Part shown: positions 6,266 to 29,278 of the stretch, one piece after another
Position numbering within the stretch: position 1 is the stretch's first letter
How the letters are laid out: every line of letters begins with the position of its first letter
Source: Blastococcus sp. VKM Ac-2987
Lineage (GTDB): Bacteria; Actinomycetota; Actinomycetes; Mycobacteriales; Geodermatophilaceae
DNA: 64,000 nucleotides
NCBI RefSeq assembly: GCF_026967805.1
Contig: NZ_JAPVBG010000003.1
Span: forward strand, 310,001-374,000
Direction: 5' to 3'
Translations under genes and position numbers: made by a program
The notes under the pieces: generated by a model
What the model saw: only the letters and a program-made list of their open reading frames with translations
Told to the model about the DNA's origin: nothing
Databases searched by the model: none

Positions 6266-8373
6266 TGGGCGGGACCGGTCAGGACGATGATCGAGCGGCC
6301 CTGCACGGTGACGGTCTCACCGGGCTTGACCTCGACCGGCTCCACCTCGTTCATCTCGGCGGTGTCGAGCACCGTCGTCCAGCTGCGCGAGTAGTCGTCG
6401 CTGGGCAGGGCGAAGTCGATCGGCTCGTGCGAGGCGTTGAACGCCAGGTAGAAGTGGTCGTCCTTGACGTACTCGCCGCGCTCGTCGGTCTCCCGGATGC
6501 CGACGCCGTTGAGGTAGACGGCCAGCGACTTGGCGTAGGCGGCGTCCCAGTCCTCGTCGGCCATCTCCTCGCCGGAGGGGGCCAGCCAGGCGATGTCGGG
6601 CACCGGGTCGCCCAGGCCGCGGCGGACCGGCCGGCCGTGGAAGAACCGGCGACGACGGAACGTCGGGTGGTCGCAGCGGAGCTTGGTCACCTTCTTGGTG
6701 AACTCGAGCAGCCCCTCGTCCACGTTCTCCCAGTCGATCCAGGTGAGCTCGGAGTCCTGGCAGTAGCCGTTGTTGTTGCCGCCCTGGCTACGGCCCAGCT
6801 CGTCGCCGTGCAGCAGCATCGGCACGCCCTGGCTCAGCATGATCGTGGCGATGAAGTTGCGCCGCTGCTGCGCCCGCAGCTGCAGGATCTCCGGGTCGTC
6901 GGTCTCGCCCTCCACGCCGTGGTTCCAGCTGCGGTTGTGGCTCTCGCCGTCGTTGTTGCCCTCGCCGTTGGCCTCGTTGTGCTTCTCGTTGTAGGAGACG
7001 AGGTCGTTGAGGGTGAAGCCGTCGTGCGCGGTGACGAAGTTGATGCTCGCGAACGGACGCCGTCCCGAGTGCTGGTACAGGTCGGAGGACCCGGAGATCC
7101 GGTCGGCGAACTCGCCGATGGTGCCGCCCTCGCCGCGCCAGAAGTCGCGCACCGTGTCGCGGTACTTGCCGTTCCACTCCGTCCACAGCGCGGGGAAGTT
7201 GCCCACCTGGTAGCCGCCCTCGCCGACGTCCCACGGCTCGGCGATCAGCTTCACCTGGCTGACCACCGGGTCCTGGTGCACGAGGTCGAAGAACGTGGAC
7301 AGCCGGTCGACGGCGTGCAGCTCGCGGGCCAGCGCGGAGGCGAGGTCGAAGCGGAACCCGTCGACGTGCATCTCGGTGACCCAGTAGCGGAGCGAGTCCA
7401 TGATCAGCTGCAGCGACTGCGGCGTCCGGACGTTGAGCGTGTTCCCGGTACCGGTGAAGTCCATGTAGTACCGCTCGTCGCCCTCCACGAGCTTGTAGTA
7501 CGTGCGGTTGTCGATGCCGCGGAAGGACAGCGTGGGGCCGTTGTGGTTGCCCTCGGCGGTGTGGTTGTAGACGACGTCGAGGATGACCTCGATGCCCGCC
7601 TCGTGCAGCGCGCGCACCATGGCCTTGAACTCCTGGACCTGCTGGCCCGCCGAGGTGTCGCTGGCGTACTCGTTGTGCGGGGCGAAGAAGCCGATCGTGT
7701 TGTAGCCCCAGTAGTTGCGCAGGCCCTTCTGCTGCAGCGTGTCGTCCTGGACGAACTGGTGCACCGGCAGCAGCTCGATCGCCGTGATGCCCATGTCGGT
7801 GAGGTGCTCGATCGTGGCCGGGTGGGCCACGCCGGCGTACGTGCCGCGCAGCTCCTCCGGGATGCGGGGATTGGTCATCGTCAAGCCCTTGACGTGGGCC
7901 TCGTAGATGACCGTCTTGTTGTACGGCGTCCTCGGCGGGCGGTCCACGCCCCAGTCGAAGTAGGGGCTGACCACGACGGACTTCGGCATGTGCGGCGCCG
8001 AGTCCTCGTCGTTGCGTTCCTTGGTCTCGAAGTCGTAGCCGAAGCACGCCTGGGCCCAGTCGATCTGGCCGTCGACCGCCTTCGCGTAGGGGTCCAGCAG
8101 CAGCTTGTTCGGGTTGCACCGGAGCCCATGGGCCGGGTCGTAGGGGCCGTGCACTCGGAAGCCGTACTTCTGGCCGGCATGGATCCCCGGCAGGAAGGCG
8201 TGCCACACGTAGCCGTCCATCTCCGGCAGCCGGATGCGCTCCTCGTTCCCCTGCTCGTCGAACAGGCACAGCTCGACCTTCTCGGCCACCTCGCTGAAGA
8301 TGGCGAAGTTGGTGCCGGTGCCGTCGTACGTGGCGCCGAGAGGGTAGGCGTTTCCGGGCCACACCTGGGTCAT
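6262..8373 (-). CDS. glgX: Glycogen debranching enzyme GlgX/TreX
   Basis: 703 aa, the expected length. It has an N-terminal CBM48-like domain (about 5-110), a GH13 barrel and a C-terminal beta domain. Catalytic residues visible are the nucleophile D343 in VDGFRFDLA, the acid/base E379 in LIAEPWDVG, and D451 in VTAHDGFTL. It hydrolyses alpha-1,6 branches of glycogen to release linear maltodextrins, the substrate of the TreY encoded immediately downstream, so it fits the TreX role. AGGAGG lies about 11 nt upstream of the ATG. It is divergent from uvrB across a 500-bp gap. Confidence 0.95.
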   Translation of the reverse strand: MTQVWPGNAYPLGATYDGTGTNFAIFSEVAEKVELCLFDEQGNEERIRLPEMDGYVWHAFLPGIHAGQKYGFRVHGPYDPAHGLRCNPNKLLLDPYAKAVDGQIDWAQACFGYDFETKERNDEDSAPHMPKSVVVSPYFDWGVDRPPRTPYNKTVIYEAHVKGLTMTNPRIPEELRGTYAGVAHPATIEHLTDMGITAIELLPVHQFVQDDTLQQKGLRNYWGYNTIGFFAPHNEYASDTSAGQQVQEFKAMVRALHEAGIEVILDVVYNHTAEGNHNGPTLSFRGIDNRTYYKLVEGDERYYMDFTGTGNTLNVRTPQSLQLIMDSLRYWVTEMHVDGFRFDLASALARELHAVDRLSTFFDLVHQDPVVSQVKLIAEPWDVGEGGYQVGNFPALWTEWNGKYRDTVRDFWRGEGGTIGEFADRISGSSDLYQHSGRRPFASINFVTAHDGFTLNDLVSYNEKHNEANGEGNNDGESHNRSWNHGVEGETDDPEILQLRAQQRRNFIATIMLSQGVPMLLHGDELGRSQGGNNNGYCQDSELTWIDWENVDEGLLEFTKKVTKLRCDHPTFRRRRFFHGRPVRRGLGDPVPDIAWLAPSGEEMADEDWDAAYAKSLAVYLNGVGIRETDERGEYVKDDHFYLAFNASHEPIDFALPSDDYSRSWTTVLDTAEMNEVEPVEVKPGETVTVQGRSIIVLTGPAQ

Positions 8374-20147: not shown

Positions 20148-20241
20148 GCGCCGGACCTACGCAGCCGCACGCTCGGCCGGCGGGCGGCGCGGGATCGCCG
20201 TTCCCGTCCCGGGAAGAGGTGTCGAACCGGCCGCTGGGGCC

Positions 20242-20247
20242 TAGCGT
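20242..20247 (+). promoter_or_regulatory. Putative -10 element of the small acidic protein gene
   Basis: TAGCGT with 7 nt to the ATG at 20255, the same hexamer and spacing as in front of the S9 peptidase. Suggests a leaderless transcript. Confidence 0.5.
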
Positions 20248-20254
20248 GCGCAGG

Positions 20255-20536
20255 ATGGCGCTCATCTACCCGGTCCGGATCGACTCCCCGGAACCTGACG
20301 ACGACTCACCCCCGGAATTCTCCGAGCTCGCGGCGGACCTGTCGGACAACTGGCTGGTCGAGGTGGACCTCGGCGAGGACGGCGACGACGCCTGCTTCGG
20401 CCCGCTGACCCCGCGGGCCGCGTGGGACCTGGCGCTCGGCGTCGACGAGCGGCAGCCGGAGTGGACGGTGTCGGTGCTGCCGCTGCACGTCCCCGGCACC
20501 GCCGACGAGCTGGTCGCCCTCTTCACCGAGGACTGA
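20255..20536 (+). CDS. Small acidic protein of unknown function
   Basis: 93 aa, strongly acidic (DSPEPDDDSPPE, DLGEDGDD), with no signal peptide, TM segment or cysteine pair. The ATG at 20255 follows a TAGCGT -10 element; a longer frame upstream (from 19844) runs across the acetyltransferase promoter and is rejected. It has typical high-GC third positions and a clean stop followed by a palindrome terminator, which supports it as a real gene. I do not recognise a family. It is a separate unit from the glycosyltransferase operon behind it. Confidence 0.65.
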   Translation: MALIYPVRIDSPEPDDDSPPEFSELAADLSDNWLVEVDLGEDGDDACFGPLTPRAAWDLALGVDERQPEWTVSVLPLHVPGTADELVALFTED

Positions 20537-20543
20537 CACGCGG

Positions 20544-20569
20544 CGACCCGGACGGCGCCGTCCGGGTCG
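20544..20569 (+). terminator. 26-bp perfect palindrome after the small acidic gene
   Basis: CGACCCGGACGGC (20544-20556) is immediately followed by its exact complement (20557-20569), 8 bp after the stop codon. Folded as RNA it makes a strong hairpin that would insulate the following operon. Confidence 0.65.
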
Positions 20570-20665
20570 GGCCGTCCCGAGCCGGCCCCCGCGCGGGCGC
20601 CGGGCGTCCCGGGGATGAGGGCTCTCTCATCCGCGGCTCACCGGGATGCCACCGGCGCGGGGAAC

Positions 20666-20677
20666 GGTGAGGTCACC
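20666..20677. promoter_or_regulatory. Candidate operator before the glycosyltransferase operon
   Basis: GGTGA-N2-TCACC, perfect 5-bp half sites, 44 bp upstream of the first ATG. The 2-nt spacing does not fit the Crp palindromes elsewhere in the window. The regulator is unknown. Confidence 0.25.
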
Positions 20678-20720
20678 CACTCGACACCGGACGTCCACGT
20701 CCTCGTCGCCGGAGGACCTC

Positions 20721-22010
20721 ATGTCGCTGCCGCTCCACCGTTCCCGTCCCGCCCCGGTCCCATCGCGGCAGCGGCGGGTCGCGTTCTACTCGCACGACAC
20801 CCAGGGCCTCGGGCACACGCGCCGCAACATCGCGCTGGCCGCCGCGCTGGTGGCGGCCGACCCCCGCACGGACGTGCTCCTGCTGACCGGGAACCCGGAG
20901 GCGGCGATGCTGCCGCTGCCGCCGCGCACCGACGTCCTCACCCTGCCGACCATCCGCAAGACCGGGGACGGCGACTACGCCTCCCGGGCGCTGGTCAGCC
21001 CGCTCGAGGTGGTGCTCGACGTCCGGGCACGCATCCTGGACGCCGCGCTCGGTTCCTTCGCGCCGGACCTGCTGGTGGTGGACAAGGTCGCCGCCGGGAT
21101 CCGCGGCGAGCTGCTGCCGGCGCTGAGCACGCTGCGCGAGCTGGGCGGCACCCGTGTCGTGCTCGGCCTGCGCGAGGTGCTGGACCGCCCGGAGGTGGCG
21201 ATCGACGAGTGGGCGCGGTCGGCCACCACCGAGGTCCTCACCGACTACTACGACGCGGTGTGGGTCTACGGCGATCCCGGCGTCTACGACCCGGTCGTCG
21301 AGTACCGCCTGCCGCCCGAGGTGGCGGCCATGGTCGAGCACACCGGGTACCTCGGTCACGGCCGCGGCACCGCCGTCCGCCCGCGCACCCGTCCGACCGC
21401 CCGCGTCGCCCCGCCCGCCGGGCCCTACGTCCTCTGCATGGTGGGCGGCGGGCAGGACGGTCAGGAGCTGGCCCGGGCCTTCGCCGCGGCACCGCTCCCC
21501 GACGGCCACCGCGGCGTGCTGCTCACCGGCCCGTTCATGCAGCGGTCCGTGCGCGACGCCGTCACGGCGGCCGCCGCGGCCGGCGACCGCCTGACCGTCC
21601 TGGACTTCGTGCCCGACAGCGAGGAGTTCATCGCCGGCGCGGCCGCCGTGGTGTCGATGGGCGGCTACAACAGCGTCTGCGAGGTGCTGGCCGCCGGCAG
21701 CCGGGCGCTCGTGGTCCCCCGGGTGAGCCCCCGGGCGGAGCAGCTGCTGCGGGCCGAGCGGCTGGCCGCGCGCGGCCTGCTCGACTACTGCCACCCGGCC
21801 GGGCTGACCAGCGCCGTGCTCGGCGCGTGGCTGGCCGCCGCGGTCAGCACGCCCGCGCCGCCCGGGACCCCGGTCGACCTGGACGGGTTGCAGCGCGTCC
21901 CCTCCCTGGCCGACCGCCTGCTGGGCACGCAGCCCGCCCCCGCCCAGGGGCAGCCGGCCGGCGGCGACGTCCGCGTCGCGCCGAGGGGAGCCGACCGTGC
22001 AGCGGCCTGA
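20721..22010 (+). CDS. MurG-like (family 28 type) glycosyltransferase
   Basis: 429 aa from the ATG at 20721, with GGAGG 5 nt upstream; the frame is open 75 nt further 5' without a ribosome site. The N-terminal HDTQGLGHTRRN (about 25-36) corresponds to the glycine-rich acceptor loop of GT-B enzymes of the MurG/UGT type. The C-terminal donor site is SMGGYNSVCEVLAAG followed by PRVSPRAEQ. It resembles the uncharacterised predicted glycosyltransferases of the COG4671 kind. It is the first gene of a six-gene operon; the next gene starts inside its 3' end. Cytoplasmic or membrane-associated. Donor and acceptor sugars are unknown. Confidence 0.85.
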   Translation: MSLPLHRSRPAPVPSRQRRVAFYSHDTQGLGHTRRNIALAAALVAADPRTDVLLLTGNPEAAMLPLPPRTDVLTLPTIRKTGDGDYASRALVSPLEVVLDVRARILDAALGSFAPDLLVVDKVAAGIRGELLPALSTLRELGGTRVVLGLREVLDRPEVAIDEWARSATTEVLTDYYDAVWVYGDPGVYDPVVEYRLPPEVAAMVEHTGYLGHGRGTAVRPRTRPTARVAPPAGPYVLCMVGGGQDGQELARAFAAAPLPDGHRGVLLTGPFMQRSVRDAVTAAAAAGDRLTVLDFVPDSEEFIAGAAAVVSMGGYNSVCEVLAAGSRALVVPRVSPRAEQLLRAERLAARGLLDYCHPAGLTSAVLGAWLAAAVSTPAPPGTPVDLDGLQRVPSLADRLLGTQPAPAQGQPAGGDVRVAPRGADRAAA

Positions 22011-23268
22011 CCCGGTAGTCCCCGCGCCCCGGGTCGGCTACGTGCTGAAGATGTACCCCCGCTTCTCCGAGACCTTCGTGGTCACCGAGCTGCTCGCCCA
22101 CCAGGAGCGCGGTCTCGATCTCACGGTGTTCTCCCTGCGGCCACCGGCCGACGGCCGCTTCCACGAGTCGCTGGCCCGCCTGCGGACGCCGGTCACCTAC
22201 CTGCGCTCGTCGAGCATCCGCGCCGACGACCTGTGGACGGCGTTCCGGGACGCCCGCGCCGAGCTGCCCGAGCTGGCCCGGCACGCCGACGAGCTGTGGG
22301 ACGCCGACGCCCGCGACGCCGTGCAGGCGGTGGAGCTGGCGCTGGCCGCCCGCGCCGCGGGGATCACGCACCTGCACGCCCACTTCGCGTCGGTCGCCAC
22401 CACGGTCGCCCGGCTCGCCGCCCGGCTGGCGGGGATCACGTACTCCTTCACCGCCCACGCGAAGGACATCTTCCACAGCGAGGTCAGCGACGACGACCTG
22501 CGCGTCAAGCTCGCCGACGCCGCCGACGTCGTCACGATCAGCAACTACAACCTCGGCCACCTGCGCGCACGCTTCGGGCCCGCGGCCGACGGGGTCCGGC
22601 GGGTCTACAACGGCCTCGACCTGGCGGCCTTCCCGCACACCTCGCCGGCGGACCGCCCGCCGGTGGTGGCCGCGGTCGGCCGGTTCGTGGAGAAGAAGGG
22701 GTTCGGGGACCTGCTGGAGGCCGTCGCGCTGCTCCGCGCCCGCGGGCGGGACGTCTCGGTGCAGCTGGTGGGCACCGGCCCGCTGGGGCCCGAGCTGGCC
22801 GCCCGGCTCGACCGCCTGGGGCTCCGGGACGCCGTCACGATGACCGGGGCGCTGACCCAGGAGGAGGTGCGGGCGGTGGTCGGCGCGGCCGCCGCGTTCG
22901 CCGCGCCCTGCGTCGTCGGCGCCGACGGGAACCGGGACGGGCTGCCCACCGTGCTGCTGGAGGCGATGGCGCTCGGGACGCCGTGCGTCGCGACGCCGGT
23001 GACCGGCATCCCCGAGGTCCTGCGGCACGAGGAGACCGGCCTCCTGGTGCCCGAGCGCGATCCGGGGGCCCTCGCGGCCGCCCTCGACCGGCTGCTGGGG
23101 GATGCCGGCCTGCGCACCCGCCTGGCGACGGCCGCCCGGCAGCGCATCGAGGCGGACTTCGACGCCCGCCGGCAGGCGGCCGGCGTGGCGGCCGGCTTCC
23201 CGCCGCCTGCGCCCGCCGCCCCGGCCGGCGCGCCGGCGGAGCGGCCGCGCGCCGGGGTGGCCGGCTGA
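21997..23268 (+). CDS. Family 4 glycosyltransferase, first of two
   Basis: 423 aa from a GTG that overlaps the previous gene by 14 nt. GT-B fold: N-terminal MYPRFSETFVVTELL (the PRxSETFV motif common in GT4 enzymes of exopolysaccharide clusters), HLHAHFAS, and FTAHAKDIF. The C-terminal donor domain has VGRFVEKKGF and the retaining-GT4 EX7E-type region DGLPTVLLEAMALGTP. It uses a nucleotide sugar, probably on a lipid- or sugar-linked acceptor. Its stop overlaps the next start (ATG at 23268 shares the A of TGA), so it is translationally coupled. Confidence 0.88.
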   Translation: MQRPDPVVPAPRVGYVLKMYPRFSETFVVTELLAHQERGLDLTVFSLRPPADGRFHESLARLRTPVTYLRSSSIRADDLWTAFRDARAELPELARHADELWDADARDAVQAVELALAARAAGITHLHAHFASVATTVARLAARLAGITYSFTAHAKDIFHSEVSDDDLRVKLADAADVVTISNYNLGHLRARFGPAADGVRRVYNGLDLAAFPHTSPADRPPVVAAVGRFVEKKGFGDLLEAVALLRARGRDVSVQLVGTGPLGPELAARLDRLGLRDAVTMTGALTQEEVRAVVGAAAAFAAPCVVGADGNRDGLPTVLLEAMALGTPCVATPVTGIPEVLRHEETGLLVPERDPGALAAALDRLLGDAGLRTRLATAARQRIEADFDARRQAAGVAAGFPPPAPAAPAGAPAERPRAGVAG

Positions 23269-24452
23269 TGCGCGTCGCCGTCGTCTGCACCGACCCCGGC
23301 ATCCCGGTCATCGGCCGCAAGGGCGCCTCGGTGCACCTGCAGGCGGTGCTGCGCGTGCTGGTCGCCGACGGGCACGAGGTGCACCTTCTCAGCCCCCGCC
23401 CGGGCGGCGCACCACCGGCCGGCGTCCGGCTGCACGGCCTGCCGCCGGTCACCGGGAGGGACGGCGACCGGGAGCGCTCCGCGCAGGCCTGCGACGCCGC
23501 GGTCGGTGCCTGCCTCGACCGGATCGGCCCCGACCTCGTCTACGAGCGGTACTCCCTGTGGGGTCGCACGGCGACCGCGTGGGCGCAGGCCGCCGGCGTG
23601 CCCAGCGTGCTGGAGGTCAACGCGCCGCTGCCCCGGGAGCAGGCCACCCACCGGTCCCTGGCCGACCGCGCGGGGGCCGAGGCCGTCGCCGGCGCGGCCC
23701 TCTCCGCGGCGACGGCCGTCGTGTGCGTCAGCGACGCGGTCGCCGACTGGGCCCGGTCGAGGTCCGGCCGCCCCGACCGGGTGCACACCGAGCCCAACGG
23801 CGTCGACGTCGACCGGGTGCGGCCGGCCGCGGGCCCGGTGACCCCGGCGTCGGGAACACCGTTCACGGTCGGCTTCGTCGGCACCCTCAAGCTGTGGCAC
23901 GGCGTGGAGACGCTGGTCGAAGCCGTCGCCGCGCTGACGGCGCAGGACCCGACCTGGCGGCTGCTGCTGGTGGGCGACGGGCCGACGGCGACCGCGCTGC
24001 TCGCCCGCGCGGCCGAGCTCGGCGTCGCGGTCGAGGCGACCGGCTCGCTGCCGCCGGAGGACGTGCCGGCCCAGCTGCACCGGATGGACGTCGGCGTGGC
24101 GCCCTATCCCGCCGACGCGGACAGCTACTTCTCCCCGCTGAAGGTGTACGAGTACCTCGCCGCCGGGCTCCCGGTCGTCGCCAGCCGGGTCGGGCAGCTG
24201 CCGGCCGTCCTCGGCAGCGGTCCCGGCGGGCGGCCGCTGGGCGTGCTCGTCCCGCCCGGCGACGCCGTGGCGCTGGCCGCTGCGCTGGTGTCGCTCCGCG
24301 GGGACCCGGACGCCCGGACCCGGCTGCGCGCCGACGGGCGCGCCGCCGCGGTGGCCAGGCACGCGTGGCGGGACGTCGTCCGCCGCTCGCTGGCGCACGC
24401 GCTGGGGACGCCGGCGGGACCGGTGCGGGCGGTGCCCGGGGGGCCGCGGTGA
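23268..24452 (+). CDS. Family 4 glycosyltransferase, second of two
   Basis: 394 aa. N-terminal GRKGASVHLQAVLRVL is the acceptor-loop region of GT4 enzymes. LVYERYSLWG and the mid-protein VEPNGVD-type linker (TEPNGVDVDRV) follow. The donor domain has VGFVGTLKLWHGV and SPLKVYEYLAAGLPVVAS. It differs from the preceding GT4 throughout, so it probably forms a different linkage. It overlaps the ABC transporter gene by 4 nt (GTGA, 24449-24452). No hydrophobic membrane anchor is apparent. Confidence 0.88.
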   Translation: MRVAVVCTDPGIPVIGRKGASVHLQAVLRVLVADGHEVHLLSPRPGGAPPAGVRLHGLPPVTGRDGDRERSAQACDAAVGACLDRIGPDLVYERYSLWGRTATAWAQAAGVPSVLEVNAPLPREQATHRSLADRAGAEAVAGAALSAATAVVCVSDAVADWARSRSGRPDRVHTEPNGVDVDRVRPAAGPVTPASGTPFTVGFVGTLKLWHGVETLVEAVAALTAQDPTWRLLLVGDGPTATALLARAAELGVAVEATGSLPPEDVPAQLHRMDVGVAPYPADADSYFSPLKVYEYLAAGLPVVASRVGQLPAVLGSGPGGRPLGVLVPPGDAVALAAALVSLRGDPDARTRLRADGRAAAVARHAWRDVVRRSLAHALGTPAGPVRAVPGGPR

Positions 24453-26335
24453 GGGCCGTCCGGGCGATCCGCCGGGACCGGCCGACCGGCCTGCGCTCGG
24501 CGGTGCCGGGGCTGCGACGCACGCTGCGCCGCTTCGCCCCGCACGTGCGCAGCCAGCGCGGCCTGCTGGTCCTGGGCCTGCTCGCGCTGCTCGTCGAGGT
24601 GGCGATGCGGCTGCTCGAGCCCTGGCCCCTGGCGTGGGTCATCGACGCGGTCGTGGTCGCCGCCGGCGCCGACCTCTCCGTCGCGCCGCCCGACAACCTG
24701 GGCGCCGTGCTGGTGGTCGCCTCCGTCGCCGTCTTCGGGGTCATCGCGCTGCGGGCGCTGGCCTCGTTCGCCATGACGCTCTGCTTCGCGCTGGCCGGGA
24801 ACCGGGTGCTCACCCGGGTCCGGAGCGAGCTGTACGCCCACCTCAACCGGCTGTCGATGGGGTACCACGACCGCGCCCGGACCGGTGACCTGGTCACCCG
24901 CGTCACGGGGGACGTCGGCCGGCTGCAGGAGGCGACGGTGACCGCGGCGCTGCCGCTGTTCGGCAACGTCGTCACCCTGCTCGGGATGCTCGTGGTCATC
25001 GCCGTGCTCAACCTGCAGCTGGCGCTGGTCGTGCTCCTGGTGTTCCCGATCTTCGGGCTGGTCAGCGTGCGGCTGACCCGGCGGATCAGCGGTGTCTCGC
25101 GGACCCAGCGCACGGCCGAGGGGGCGCTGGCCTCGCTGGCCACGGAGTCGCTCGGCGCGATGACCGTCGTGCAGAGCTACTCCCTGGAGGCGCGCATGCA
25201 GGAGCGCTTCAGCGGCAGCAACGAGCGCAGCCTGCGCGACGGCGTGCAGGCCAAGCGGCTCTCCGCCGGCCTGGAACGCAGCACCGACGTCCTCGTCGGC
25301 CTGGCCACCGGCGTCGTCCTCTACGTCGGTGCCCGGCAGGTCCTCGCCGGCGACCTCACCCCCGGCGAGCTCACCGTGTTCCTCACCTACCTGAAGACGG
25401 CGTTCAAGCCGATGCGCGACATCGCCAAGTACACCGGCCGGATCTCCAAGGCGGCCGCGTCGGGGGAGCGCATCGTCGACGTCCTGGAGGTCGAGCCGCA
25501 GCTGCGGGACGCCCCGTGGGCGCGCCCGTGCCCCGCGCTCCTGGGCTACGTCGAGTTCGACGACGTCCACCTCGCCTACGAGCCGGGGCACCCGGTGCTG
25601 CGCGGGCTGAGCGCGCGCGTCCGGCCGGGGGAGCGGATCGCCGTCGTGGGCCCCTCGGGCGCCGGGAAGTCCACCCTGGTCTCGCTGCTCTCCCGCCTGC
25701 GCGACCCCGACTCCGGCACCGTCTCCTTCGACGGGCACGACCTGCGCGACCTCACCGTCGCGTCGGTGCGCGCGCAGGTGTCGATCGTGCTGCAGGAGAG
25801 CGTGCTGTTCGCCGCTCCGGTGCGGGAGAACATCGCGCTGGGGGTCGACCGGGAGGTGACGCAGGAGGAGATCGAGGCGGCCGCCCGGCTCGCCGGCGCG
25901 CACGACTTCGTGACCCTGCTGCCGCAGGGCTACGACACGGTGGTCGGCGAGCGCGGCTCGACGCTCTCCGGGGGGCAGCGCCAGCGGATCGCCATCGCCC
26001 GCGCCGCGTTGCGCGACGCCCCGATCGTGGTCCTCGACGAGGCGCTCACCGGGCTCGACGAGGACACCGAGGCCGAGGTCACCGCGGCGCTGGCCCGGCT
26101 GACCCGCGGGCGCACCACGTTCGTGATCACCCACGACCTCGCCGCCGCCCGGAACGCCGACCGGGTGCTCTGGATGGAGGACGGCCGGATCGTCCGCGCC
26201 GGCCGGCCCGAGGAGATCCTGCCGCCCGGCCCGGTCGCGCTGCCGGCGGTTCCGCCCCCGGCCGTCCCGGTCCGCGGCGTGCCGGCGGAGCGGCCGCCGG
26301 CCCGTCCCGAGGAGTTCCCCCGTGCGGCCCGCTGA
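24449..26335 (+). CDS. ABC exporter, fused permease and ATPase (half-transporter)
   Basis: 628 aa from a GTG in the 4-nt overlap. A type IV exporter: six TM helices (about 30-330), then the nucleotide-binding domain with Walker A GPSGAGKST (K407), a Q-loop QESVLF, signature LSGGQRQR (506-513), Walker B IVVLDEAL and the H-loop ITHDLA. As a half-transporter it should work as a homodimer. The family exports lipids, glycolipids, peptides or drugs. Here, between glycosyltransferases and kinases, it most likely exports or flips the product of the operon (inference). The first 25 residues are basic. Confidence 0.92.
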   Translation: MRAVRAIRRDRPTGLRSAVPGLRRTLRRFAPHVRSQRGLLVLGLLALLVEVAMRLLEPWPLAWVIDAVVVAAGADLSVAPPDNLGAVLVVASVAVFGVIALRALASFAMTLCFALAGNRVLTRVRSELYAHLNRLSMGYHDRARTGDLVTRVTGDVGRLQEATVTAALPLFGNVVTLLGMLVVIAVLNLQLALVVLLVFPIFGLVSVRLTRRISGVSRTQRTAEGALASLATESLGAMTVVQSYSLEARMQERFSGSNERSLRDGVQAKRLSAGLERSTDVLVGLATGVVLYVGARQVLAGDLTPGELTVFLTYLKTAFKPMRDIAKYTGRISKAAASGERIVDVLEVEPQLRDAPWARPCPALLGYVEFDDVHLAYEPGHPVLRGLSARVRPGERIAVVGPSGAGKSTLVSLLSRLRDPDSGTVSFDGHDLRDLTVASVRAQVSIVLQESVLFAAPVRENIALGVDREVTQEEIEAAARLAGAHDFVTLLPQGYDTVVGERGSTLSGGQRQRIAIARAALRDAPIVVLDEALTGLDEDTEAEVTAALARLTRGRTTFVITHDLAAARNADRVLWMEDGRIVRAGRPEEILPPGPVALPAVPPPAVPVRGVPAERPPARPEEFPRAAR

Positions 26336-27536
26336 CGCCGATCTCGCCGCCCGCGACCGGGCCCTCCCGGGTCTGCCGGTGCTGCTGGACGACGACCTGC
26401 TGGCCGGCTGGCTGGCCGGGCGCGGCCTCGGACCGGGGCGACGCCGCTACCTCCGGTACAAGCCCGGCACGAGCTGCGTCCTCGGCCTGGAGCTGCGCAC
26501 CGGCGGGGGCCCGGTCCCGGCGGTGCTCGGCGCCTGGTCCGCCGACAGCTCGCCCAAGCTCGGCAAGACCCGCCTCCGCGCCTCGAGCGGGACGGTCCTC
26601 GCGGTCGACGAGGGCAGCCACCTGCTGCTCACCACCGGCGAGGCCGACCGCGACCTGCCGGCGATCGCCGCGCTGGCCGGGCGGGGCGGCCCGGCTGCGG
26701 TCCTGGCGCCGCTGCTCCCGGGGTGGCCGCTCGACGCGGCCACGGTCCGGGTGCTGCGCTACAAGCCCGCCCGCCGGTGGGTCGGCATCCTCGCCCCGGC
26801 CGGCCGGGACCCGCTGCTGCTGCGCGTCCACCGGCCGGCGGTCAGCGCGGAGCTGCTGGCCGCGCTCACCGCGTTCGGGACGGCCCGGGTGCGCACCCCG
26901 GGGGTCGTCGCCGCCGACGTCGGCCTGGGTCTGACGGTCATGGAATGGCTGCCCGGGCAGGCGCTGAGCGACCTCCCGGCCGGCGACCGGGGGCACCTCC
27001 TCCGGCCGACGGGCCGGGTGCTCGCCCAGCTGCACCAGCACCCGGCACCCGGGCTGCGCCCGCGCCGCTCCGGTGCGGCGGCGGAGAGCGCGCGGGCGGC
27101 CGCCACCCTCGTGGCGCGGCTGCTCCCGGCCCAGGCCGGCCGGGCGCTCGGGCTGGCGGAGGCCATCGGCAGGCAGCTGCGGCCGCCGTCCGGGCTGCGG
27201 GTCTCCCACGGCGACTTCTCGGCCGACCAGGTGGTCGTCGGTCCGGACGGCCCCGCGCTCGCCGACCTCGACGAGGTGGCCCTCGACGACCCCGCCGTCG
27301 ACCTCGGGTCGATGACCGCCAGCGCGCGCCTCGACGGCACCGGGCACGACGGCGACGTCGGCCCCGTGCTCGCCGGCTACGCGACCACCCGGCCCCTTCC
27401 CCCCGCGCGGCAGCTGGCCGCTCACACGGCCGCCGCGCTGCTGCGCCGGGCGCCCGAGCCCTTCCGGCTGGCCGCCCCCTCGTGGGAGGCGGGTGTGGTC
27501 CGCGCGCTGGACGCGGCCGAGGAGGTCCTGCCGTGA
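26322..27536 (+). CDS. Kinase-fold phosphotransferase (APH/choline kinase type), first
   Basis: 404 aa from a GTG 14 nt inside the ABC gene. The C-terminal lobe has the catalytic loop HGDFSADQ (D298) and the metal-binding DLDE (D317), as in aminoglycoside phosphotransferases and choline kinases. The N-terminal half is unusual: an LRYKP-plus-V strand motif occurs twice, YLRYKPGTSCVLGLEL at about 43-58 and VLRYKPARRWVGIL at about 144-157. This suggests a duplicated N-lobe. It probably phosphorylates a hydroxyl on a sugar or small molecule. Antibiotic resistance is possible but not favoured by the context. Confidence 0.8.
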   Translation: MRPADADLAARDRALPGLPVLLDDDLLAGWLAGRGLGPGRRRYLRYKPGTSCVLGLELRTGGGPVPAVLGAWSADSSPKLGKTRLRASSGTVLAVDEGSHLLLTTGEADRDLPAIAALAGRGGPAAVLAPLLPGWPLDAATVRVLRYKPARRWVGILAPAGRDPLLLRVHRPAVSAELLAALTAFGTARVRTPGVVAADVGLGLTVMEWLPGQALSDLPAGDRGHLLRPTGRVLAQLHQHPAPGLRPRRSGAAAESARAAATLVARLLPAQAGRALGLAEAIGRQLRPPSGLRVSHGDFSADQVVVGPDGPALADLDEVALDDPAVDLGSMTASARLDGTGHDGDVGPVLAGYATTRPLPPARQLAAHTAAALLRRAPEPFRLAAPSWEAGVVRALDAAEEVLP

Positions 27537-28585
27537 GCGGTGCGGACGGCGGGGGAGCGGCCGCCCGGCTGGCCACCGCCGGCGCCGACGTCGGGAGCCG
27601 GGGCGGTCGGCTGCTGCGGGCCTGGCCGCGCAGCCCGGAGCACCTGCTGCTGGAGATCGCCCTGGGCGGGGCGCCGACCGCCGGGCAGTGGTTCGCGGAC
27701 CCGGACCGGGCCCGGGCGGTCGCCTCGGCGACGGTCGGCGCGACCGTGCGCGGCCGGCTCGTGCTGCAGCCGCGGGGCGCCGACCGCCGGCTGCGCGGCC
27801 TCGGCGACCTGCTCGCCGCACCGGGCGCCGCGCTGCTGGCCCACCGTCCGGAGCGGCGCGCGGTGCTGCGCCACCCCGGACCCGGCGGGGCGACGGTCTA
27901 CACCAAGGTGGTGCGGCCGGACCGGCTGCCGGACCTGCTCCTCGCCGCCGAGCGGGTGACCGGGCTGCCCGTGCGCACGCCCCGGCTGATCGGCTCCGAC
28001 CCCCGGCTCGGCCGCCTGACCACGGCGGCGCTCCCGGGCCGGCCGCTGCACGAGTTGCTGGGCTCGCCCGCCGCGGTCCCGGCCTGCCGGGCCCTGGGGG
28101 CCGCCCTCGCGGCGCTCCACGCGGCGCCGGTGCCGCCGGGCACGCCGGTGCACGACGCGGCGGCCGAGGTGGCGGTGCTCCGCCGGTGGTCGGAGCTGGC
28201 CCGCACGTGGGGTGCGGCGGACATCGCCGGCGTCGAGGAGGCGGCCGGTGCACTGGCGGCCGGGCCGGCCGGGCGGCCGGTGCTCCTCCACCGCGACCTG
28301 CACGACCGGCAGGTCCTCGTGGCCGGTGACGGCTCCGTCGGGCTGCTCGACCTCGACCTGCTCGCGGCGGGCGAGCCGGCGCTCGACCTGGCCAACCTGC
28401 TCGTCCACCTGGAGCTGCGCGAGCGGCAGGGCCTCCTCCGGGACGCGGCGGTGCTGCGGGAGGCGGTGCTCGAGGGGTACCGGCCCTCCGGCGCCACGCT
28501 CGACCGGGTGCCCGCCCACGCGGCGGCGACCCGGCTCCGGCTCGCCGCGGTGTACGCCTTCCGCCCCGGCGCACCGGTCAGCTGA
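27533..28585 (+). CDS. Kinase-fold phosphotransferase (APH type), second
   Basis: 350 aa from a GTG in a 4-nt overlap with the first kinase. The catalytic loop is HRDLHDRQ (D255) and the metal-binding motif LLDLDLLAAGEPALDLANLL (D273/D275). As in its neighbour, about 100 residues precede the apparent N-lobe; they look like a decayed extra lobe. The two kinases are only distantly similar, so they may phosphorylate different intermediates, or one may be regulatory. It is the last gene of the operon; the next gene is convergent 27 bp away. Confidence 0.8.
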   Translation: MSGADGGGAAARLATAGADVGSRGGRLLRAWPRSPEHLLLEIALGGAPTAGQWFADPDRARAVASATVGATVRGRLVLQPRGADRRLRGLGDLLAAPGAALLAHRPERRAVLRHPGPGGATVYTKVVRPDRLPDLLLAAERVTGLPVRTPRLIGSDPRLGRLTTAALPGRPLHELLGSPAAVPACRALGAALAALHAAPVPPGTPVHDAAAEVAVLRRWSELARTWGAADIAGVEEAAGALAAGPAGRPVLLHRDLHDRQVLVAGDGSVGLLDLDLLAAGEPALDLANLLVHLELRERQGLLRDAAVLREAVLEGYRPSGATLDRVPAHAAATRLRLAAVYAFRPGAPVS

Positions 28586-28612
28586 CGCTGCGTGGCTGCC
28601 CGGTCCGGCCGG

Positions 28613-29278
28613 TCACCAGCCGCGCTCGCGCCACTCCGCGAGGTGCGGGCGCTCGGCGCCGATGGTCGTGTCGCTGCCGTGCCCGGGGTAGACCCACGCC
28701 TCGTCGGGCAGGACGGCGAACAGCCGCTGCTCGACGTCGTCGACCAGGCTGGCGAAGTCCTCCGCCGACCACGTCTTCCCGACCCCGCCGGGGAAGAGGC
28801 TGTCGCCGGTGAAGACGTGCACGCCGGCGTCGCCGGGGCCGCGCCAGACCAGCGCGATGCTCCCCGGGGTGTGCCCGCGCAGGTGCACCACCTCGAGCAC
28901 CTGCGCGCCGACGGTCACCGGATCGCCGTGCTCCACCGGCCGCTGCACCGGCACCGGGAGCTCGGCGGCGTCGGCCGGGTGGGCGACGGTGACCGCGCCG
29001 GTCTCCCGGACGACGTCGGGCAGGGCCCGGTGGTGGTCCCAGTGGCGGTGGGTGGTGACGACGGTGCGCAGGTCGGTGCCCCCGATGAGCGCGCGCAGCG
29101 TCTCCGGCTCCGCCGCGGCGTCGACCAGCAGCGCCTCGCCGGTGGCCGTGCAGCGCAGCAGGTAGGCGTTGTTCGCCATCTCGCTCACCGCCACCTTGGT
29201 GATGGTCAGCCCGGGCAGCTCGCGCACGTCGGCGGGACCACCCACCGCGACGTCCCCGGTGTAGGTAGAGGTGCTCAT
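28613..29278 (-). CDS. MBL-fold metallo-hydrolase (glyoxalase II-like)
   Basis: 221 aa. The zinc-binding motif THRHWDHH (about 75-82) has one substitution from the strict THxHxDH pattern that keeps the key H and D residues. Later ligands are the H of RGHTPGS, FTGDSLF and YPGHGSDTT. The C-terminal IGAERPHLAEW fits the hydroxyacylglutathione-hydrolase-like group common in actinobacteria. It probably hydrolyses a thioester or lactone. GGAG lies 6 nt before the ATG. Divergent from the amidase gene across 47 bp. Confidence 0.88.
   Translation of the reverse strand: MSTSTYTGDVAVGGPADVRELPGLTITKVAVSEMANNAYLLRCTATGEALLVDAAAEPETLRALIGGTDLRTVVTTHRHWDHHRALPDVVRETGAVTVAHPADAAELPVPVQRPVEHGDPVTVGAQVLEVVHLRGHTPGSIALVWRGPGDAGVHVFTGDSLFPGGVGKTWSAEDFASLVDDVEQRLFAVLPDEAWVYPGHGSDTTIGAERPHLAEWRERGW

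Follow-up and report, generated by a model that had tools for sequence, protein, structure and literature searches.

Locus and genes

We analyzed a 64,000-nucleotide stretch of Blastococcus sp. VKM Ac-2987 (contig NZ_JAPVBG010000003.1, positions 310,001 to 374,000; hereafter the window) that carries six overlapping genes, G1 to G6, forming a candidate glycan assembly-and-export cassette. The six open reading frames (ORFs) were confirmed on the + strand at 20721-28585 without internal stops, and their third-codon G+C of 0.96-0.98 is of the coding type. G1 (20721..22010, 429 aa) is a GT28/MurG-like glycosyltransferase (Pfam PF04101, 1.4e-5). It is followed by two GT4 glycosyltransferases, the EpsE/WcaL-like G2 (21997..23268, 423 aa; PF13692, 1e-35) and G3 (23268..24452, 394 aa; PF13692, 5e-26, and PF13439, 2e-20). 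G4 (24449..26335, 628 aa) is a half ATP-binding cassette (ABC) exporter of the MsbA type (PF00664, 5e-49; PF00005, 3e-32). G5 (26322..27536) is a kinase in which an extra N-terminal domain (residues ~1-110) precedes an APH/ELK kinase domain (~110-404) with the motif HGDFSADQ...DxD. G6 (27533..28585) is a second kinase of the same layout (N-terminal domain at 1-98) with the motif HRDLHDRQ...DxD and a VAIK-type Lys125; both proteins have the Pfam APH kinase domain. The five junctions, from G1-G2 to G5-G6, overlap by 14, 1, 4, 14, and 4 nt. An earlier note on this DNA had described these six overlapping genes, and its coordinates, overlaps, and family assignments were confirmed, although the inserted segment itself is slightly larger (20545-28606).

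Comparison with three genomes of the same genus (L156, L157, and L158) located the edges of this segment, to which no strand is assigned. The flanking stretch is collinear with the window in all three, and the block is absent. Window base 20544 corresponds to base 7793 and window base 28607 to base 7798 in L156, and the gap between the conserved flanks is 8 bases in L157 and 6 bases in L158. The cassette is therefore a precise ~8.06 kb insert. The block region is also unaligned in a genome from another genus of the family (L159), where the left side is less alike, and none of the G5 matches in 22 other same-genus genomes passed E 1e-4 (one reached 5e-4). The G+C content of the insert, 0.76-0.81 in 2-kb steps, is slightly higher than that of most of its surroundings. 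It is preceded by chromosomal genes for UvrB, TerC, two peptidases, and an acetyltransferase, and followed by genes for a metallo-hydrolase, an amidase, UvrA, UvrC, CofD/YvcK, WhiA, and Pgk.

Right at the left edge of the insert lies a perfect palindrome of 26 nt, rich in GC (20544-20569), that is absent from the empty sites compared. It may represent a terminator or mark the end of the insertion. A promoter and terminator scan found none, and the families listed in a repeat scan of 20200-28900 were only short degenerate repeats of the coding type. No NCBIfam model reached its cut-off for G1 to G6 among the matches listed. PADLOC defence profiles (E<=0.001) gave only ATPase-type matches to G4 (mad3, mad8) and none to the other five proteins, and a known anti-phage defence system was rejected on these component profiles.

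Conservation of gene order

Relatives were collected by scanning GTDB species genomes with G5 as the sole bait, so the neighboring genes count as independent evidence. The scan yielded 134 relatives and 80 loci. G1-G2-G3-G4 are contiguous and in order in 61 of the 80, which is far above chance, and in 56 of these 61 two kinase calls or one kinase ORF longer than 600 aa follow. A single ORF of >600 aa accounts for 29 ordered loci and separate G5 and G6 for 23; a further three have G5 with two G6 genes, and one (L034) has G5 with a long G6 ORF. In the rest only G5 was called (three loci) or no kinase was called (two loci, in which kinase ORFs are nonetheless visible). The tandem G6-type kinases belong to the Arthrobacter group (L066, L074, and L087). 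Of the 19 non-ordered loci, three are exceptions described below. Ten start at a contig end (L020, L021, L023, L024, L030, L040, L053, L075, L094, and L098), four are gene-calling misses with the ORFs visible, and two are fusions (L043 and L065). The genes of relatives were called by a codon-composition script that missed G3 in L027, L041, and L085 and G2 in L059, and over-extended G1 in L063 and L095; it performed poorly on the low-GC locus L099, where the annotated genes were used. Outside the 80 loci, L141 has the order G1-G2-G3-G6-G4-G5. The idea that the six genes are one coupled unit is supported, and, with the order conserved in 61 of 80 loci, the genes of relatives are not scattered among other genes, an outcome that the earlier note had named as damaging to its reading.

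Record titles assign the hosts to Actinomycetota, Pseudomonadota, and Planctomycetota, with a single bin from Chloroflexota. A strong G1 match (E below 1e-70) is present in 18 genomes of an even sample of 396 Actinomycetota, the window's own included. Each of the other 17 gives a G5-profile match at E <= 1e-10, on the same contig in 13 genomes. Over the whole sample, 90 of the 396 genomes reach this threshold, and kinases of other APH types pass it as well. In the G1 tree the window sits next to copies from Promicromonosporaceae (60% identity to L027, support 98/95), and Pseudomonadota and Planctomycetota each form a single group. Long-term inheritance within phyla thus seems mixed with local mobility, and the cassette looks like a horizontally moving kit.

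Plasmid-borne copies are found in Escherichia coli. The cassette with a porin and a dehydrogenase occurs in 18 of 5426 genomes, always on a plasmid and with at least 99% identity to the L099 copy (NZ_CP012501.1), in which the six genes are followed by the porin and then a UDP-glucose dehydrogenase. This plasmid is typed as conjugative, and its stretch also has an IS630 transposase and a gene annotated as a heat-stable enterotoxin. The window G5 had no match among plasmid records, 275 of which match the Celeribacter G1 (five were examined); phage records gave no match to the Celeribacter G1.

Fusions and co-divergence

Four of the five junctions (1-2, 3-4, 4-5, and 5-6) are found as single proteins. 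G1-G2 is an 831 aa fusion in L043 and G3-G4 a 1043 aa fusion in L065. The G4-G5 fusion recurs, in L140 (973 aa) and L143 (968 aa). Both kinase motifs are present in 32 of the 33 ORFs of >600 aa, which were judged to be G5-G6 fusions on this basis. The 33rd (L034:11310-13451) joins a planctomycete G6 to a sulfotransferase (PF13469). The G6 of L041 has a VanZ-like C-terminus. The junction fusions suggest that the enzymes probably work together, with neighbors that would touch or act in succession. The pairwise distances of G1 to G5 are correlated in all 10 gene pairs (r 0.73-0.86), values unmatched in 1000 label shuffles, and shared species history contributes to this correlation.

Recurrent neighbors

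Neighbor clusters were counted up to six genes away from the cassette. Response regulators form a cluster found in 28 loci; the histidine-kinase cluster was found in 27, and in 17 of these it occupies position -1. An AlgE-family (alginate-export) porin cluster, a neighbor of Gram-negative copies, is found in 12 loci, at +1 or +2 in 11, and a UDP-sugar dehydrogenase cluster in seven. A Pfam tally of 124 of the 132 nearest neighbors (eight were left out) gave HATPase_c 19 times, Alginate_exp 8, UDP-sugar dehydrogenase 6, and Response_reg 5; no other family among the top 25 of 155 exceeds 3, further domains of the same proteins aside. The porins match PF13372 with 136.3 bits in L045 and 84.1 bits in L099 (cut-off 25.2). 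The nearest solved relative of the L099 dehydrogenase is 3phl (E 9e-153), of the UDP-glucose type. The L093 dehydrogenase matches 4a7p, also of this type, at E 1e-94, and GDP-mannose dehydrogenase more weakly at 5e-55. The dehydrogenases of the E. coli copy and of one Arthrobacter copy appear to be different types of UDP-glucose 6-dehydrogenase, which suggests that different copies recruited the supply of UDP-glucuronic acid separately.

Glycosyltransferases and exporter

G1 has a GT28 C-terminal domain (25.7 bits, cut-off 22). A PDB sequence search with G1 matched MurG 1f0k at E 1.2e-4, and the G1 family profile matched it at E 1.3e-9. The MurG-like label given to G1 in the earlier note thus holds for the GT28 C-terminal domain, and the likeness to MurG itself appears weak. 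The G1 alignment (49 rows) has a mean column identity of 42%; those of G2 and G3 have 35 and 32 rows. G2 scores 193.1 bits against the EpsE model NF041876, under its cut-off of 400, and was rejected as this exopolysaccharide GT4. The top-scoring NCBIfam models for G4 are MsbA-type exporters, and the score of 399.7 bits against TIGR02203 (cut-off 602) rejects G4 as the MsbA lipid A exporter. The G4 family profile aligns to Sav1866 (2hyd) at 494 bits, and the half exporter presumably works as a dimer. ABC_membrane and ABC_tran are both in one 628-aa chain, and an ABC-dependent capsule or O-antigen system (Wzm/Wzt, KpsMT) was rejected because G4 has no separate membrane and ATPase subunits. Pfam finds only glycosyltransferase, ABC, and APH domains in the six genes, and no Wzx, Wzy, polyketide synthase (PKS), or nonribosomal peptide synthetase (NRPS), as the earlier note had also read them. 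A Wzx/Wzy-dependent system was rejected, since both proteins are absent from the unit and from the 25 commonest neighbor families listed.

Several of these family relationships would suit a glycolipid pathway, in which G1, in the manner of other GT28 enzymes, attaches a sugar to a membrane lipid that G2 and G3 then lengthen and the MsbA-type exporter flips. G1 belongs to GT28, MsbA-type models are the best for G4, and PimA/PimB and MshA-type enzymes are among the matches to the G2 and G3 profiles. However, the AlgE-family porin beside Gram-negative copies has no obvious lipid role, and the 25 commonest neighbor families listed include no lipid-modifying gene. We consider this pathway unlikely. 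As to the earlier proposal of a small molecule or glycolipid as the product, the porin and the UDP-glucose dehydrogenase that borders some copies favor an anionic, water-soluble glycan rather than a glycolipid of the membrane.

Kinases

G5 residues His296, Asp298, Gln303, and Asp315 are invariant in 47 of 47 alignment rows, and the motif HGDFSADQ is found in 46 of 46. The pattern HxDxxxxQ, with its Gln, is common to G5, G6, and maltokinase (Mak); the Mak of the window's own genome reads HGDLHLGQ. One maltokinase report (PMC4306142) describes Gln310, the equivalent of G5 Gln303, as binding Mg. Foldseek with the predicted G5 structure gave maltokinase as the top match at a low TM-score (0.48/0.44). 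Maltokinase is not among the 50 PDB-fold matches listed for G5 or the 50 listed for G6, lists that cover mainly residues ~110-404 of G5 and 80-350 of G6. The Mak cap PF18085 has no Pfam match in G5 or G6 at E<=0.01, and the same family was found at two places in the same genome. G5 and G6 were rejected as Mak-type maltokinases for want of this cap, though G5 has the HGDxxxxQ motif with its Gln. The class V lanthipeptide kinase LxmK was also rejected, as G5 and G6 score 35.1 and 26.8 bits against NF038156 (cut-off 315).

Other kinases of these kinds lie elsewhere. One PF18085 match (L163; G000:C6 near 306731) is ~3 kb before the window, with the kinase part unseen in that frame, and the full maltokinase is L164. 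Sister kinases with the motif HGD(F/L)(Y/H)xAQ and without cassette glycosyltransferases occur in the own genome (L134:9641-10915, on G000:C1) and in L135-L138. Close to those of L134-L137 lies a histidine kinase/response regulator pair that belongs to the families found beside the cassette.

The maltokinase-like Mg-binding Gln and the Foldseek match of G5 would fit a salvage arm, in which the kinases supply sugar 1-phosphates for nucleotide sugars without acting on the product. Against this, neither the operon (by Pfam) nor the 25 commonest neighbor families listed include a nucleotidyltransferase, and the kinases are fused to other partners, the exporter in the case of G5 and a sulfotransferase in that of G6. 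We hold a salvage role to be very unlikely. The earlier note had left the kinases to charge sugars or to add phosphate. The lack of a pyrophosphorylase in the operon disfavors charging, and the same two fusions favor a decoration of the glycan at export.

The kinases might instead place a protective tag on a small secreted glycoside, inactivating a toxic sugar compound that the exporter removes and that is activated outside. Streptomycin 6-phosphate is a precedent for a phosphorylated export form activated outside. The APH fold is one used for self-resistance, L140 and L143 have G5 joined to the exporter, and there are only three transfer steps, all of which would agree with such a tag. However, no aminocyclitol, PKS, or NRPS domains were found in the six genes, and no phosphatase recurs among the neighbor clusters or the 25 commonest neighbor families listed. 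The gene set is nearly constant over four phyla, and the porin and UDP-glucose dehydrogenase neighbors indicate a polysaccharide. We regard a protective tag as quite improbable.

Proposed function

The reading we favor, and hold to be slightly better than an even chance, is a mobile, self-contained glycan assembly-and-export cassette whose kinases phosphorylate the glycan to give a secreted anionic phosphoglycan. G1, G2, and G3 would act in the cytoplasm as GT-B glycosyltransferases and assemble an oligo- or polysaccharide, with UDP-glucuronic acid probably one donor. G4 would carry the glycan over the inner membrane, and the AlgE-family porin that adjoins many Gram-negative copies would pass it through the outer membrane. 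G5 and G6 may be docked on the G4 exporter and add phosphate before or during export, yielding the anionic product. The two-component system that often adjoins the cassette probably controls it. The export step and the glycan nature of the cargo appear well supported by the gene families and neighbors, and the earlier suggestion that three transferases make a glycan that is then exported gains support. The analysis establishes the gene content and order, the fusions, the neighbors, the insertion, and, for the kinases, the predicted folds and active-site residues; we infer the enzyme complex, sugar donor, kinase substrate, export coupling, and nature of the product. Phosphate is placed on the glycan because of the G5-exporter fusion and of the G6-sulfotransferase fusion, whose sulfotransferase would have that glycan as its substrate. 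The proposal of glucuronic acid comes from the adjacency of the dehydrogenase.

Several observations weigh against this reading. Among 46 rows, the VAIK-type position of G5 is occupied by Lys in 26 and by Arg in 20. The window has Arg, and G5 may therefore be a weak kinase or a regulator. An initiating phosphoglycosyltransferase and a polymerase were not found in the operon by Pfam, and neither the dehydrogenase, the porin, nor the two-component system was found among the scanned neighbors of the window copy. UDP-glucose dehydrogenase shows no clear genome-wide enrichment (15 of 18 cassette genomes versus 285 of 396 genomes of the phylum), so that genome content does not support dependence on UDP-glucuronic acid and adjacency is what is left. 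To our knowledge, PF13372 also includes porins not shown to transport polysaccharide. Three of the 80 loci are true exceptions to the gene order: no G4 was found in L028, L039 has an isolated G5-like kinase with complete flanking sequence, and in L082 G5 is partial and not preceded by G4. The L043 and L065 fusions come from one metagenome bin each and could conceal sequencing error.

A bolder form of the phosphoglycan reading joins the three glycosyltransferases, the MsbA-type transporter, and the two maltokinase-like kinases in one physical complex, in which exporter-bound phosphorylation drives or licenses export of a new class of secreted phosphoglycan, mobile over at least four phyla. We put this forward as a tentative and doubtful proposal. 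If the phosphoglycan reading is true, the cassette would be a polysaccharide export route beyond the Wzx/Wzy, Wzm/Wzt, and synthase-dependent ones, with kinases of a small-molecule type built into an exporter. It would also assign a role to genes that currently carry the annotation aminoglycoside phosphotransferase, such as those of the E. coli plasmid copy; a resistance function is unlikely for the cassette kinases so annotated. A secreted anionic glycan, as yet unseen, would be predicted in soil actinobacteria, marine Rhodobacteraceae, and some enterobacteria.

Comparison with known systems

No published description of the cassette was found in the open-access literature, which is weak evidence of absence. 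The earlier view that no characterized pathway has exactly this gene set stands within that scope, which does not extend to subscription papers. The closest clusters are on rhizobial and Azospirillum plasmids (L100-L102), where G1 and G2 homologs adjoin each other and are accompanied by another glycosyltransferase and a single-polypeptide ABC exporter. L100 and L101 also have a nucleotide sugar dehydrogenase, and L100 has a polysaccharide lyase. Unlike the cassette, these clusters show no kinase of the G5/G6 type in their annotated or called genes. Their exporter is much longer than G4 (880-1050 aa, with a cNMP-binding domain in L102), they include additional transporters, and L101 and L102 have a deacetylase as well.

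G4 has the half-transporter architecture of the lipid and oligosaccharide flippases MsbA and PglK (400 bits to the MsbA model), but it is under their cut-offs (602, and 1000 for PglK) and is linked to two kinases. Mak resembles G5 in having an extra N-terminal domain of similar strand order before the APH/ELK kinase. It is also like G5 in the HGDxxxxQ motif with Gln as a Mg ligand (PMC4306142), and like the cassette kinases in fusion to a partner enzyme. G5 differs from Mak in having no PF18085 cap match, in DxD versus DFE, and in the low TM-score (0.48/0.44). The cassette kinases are far under the LxmK cut-off, and none of the six genes is a lanthipeptide gene. Alginate-type synthase-dependent export shares the AlgE-family porin that lies beside several Gram-negative copies, whereas the inner-membrane step of the cassette is an ABC exporter in place of a synthase. 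The components are thus of known kinds, and what is new is their combination and coupling to kinases.

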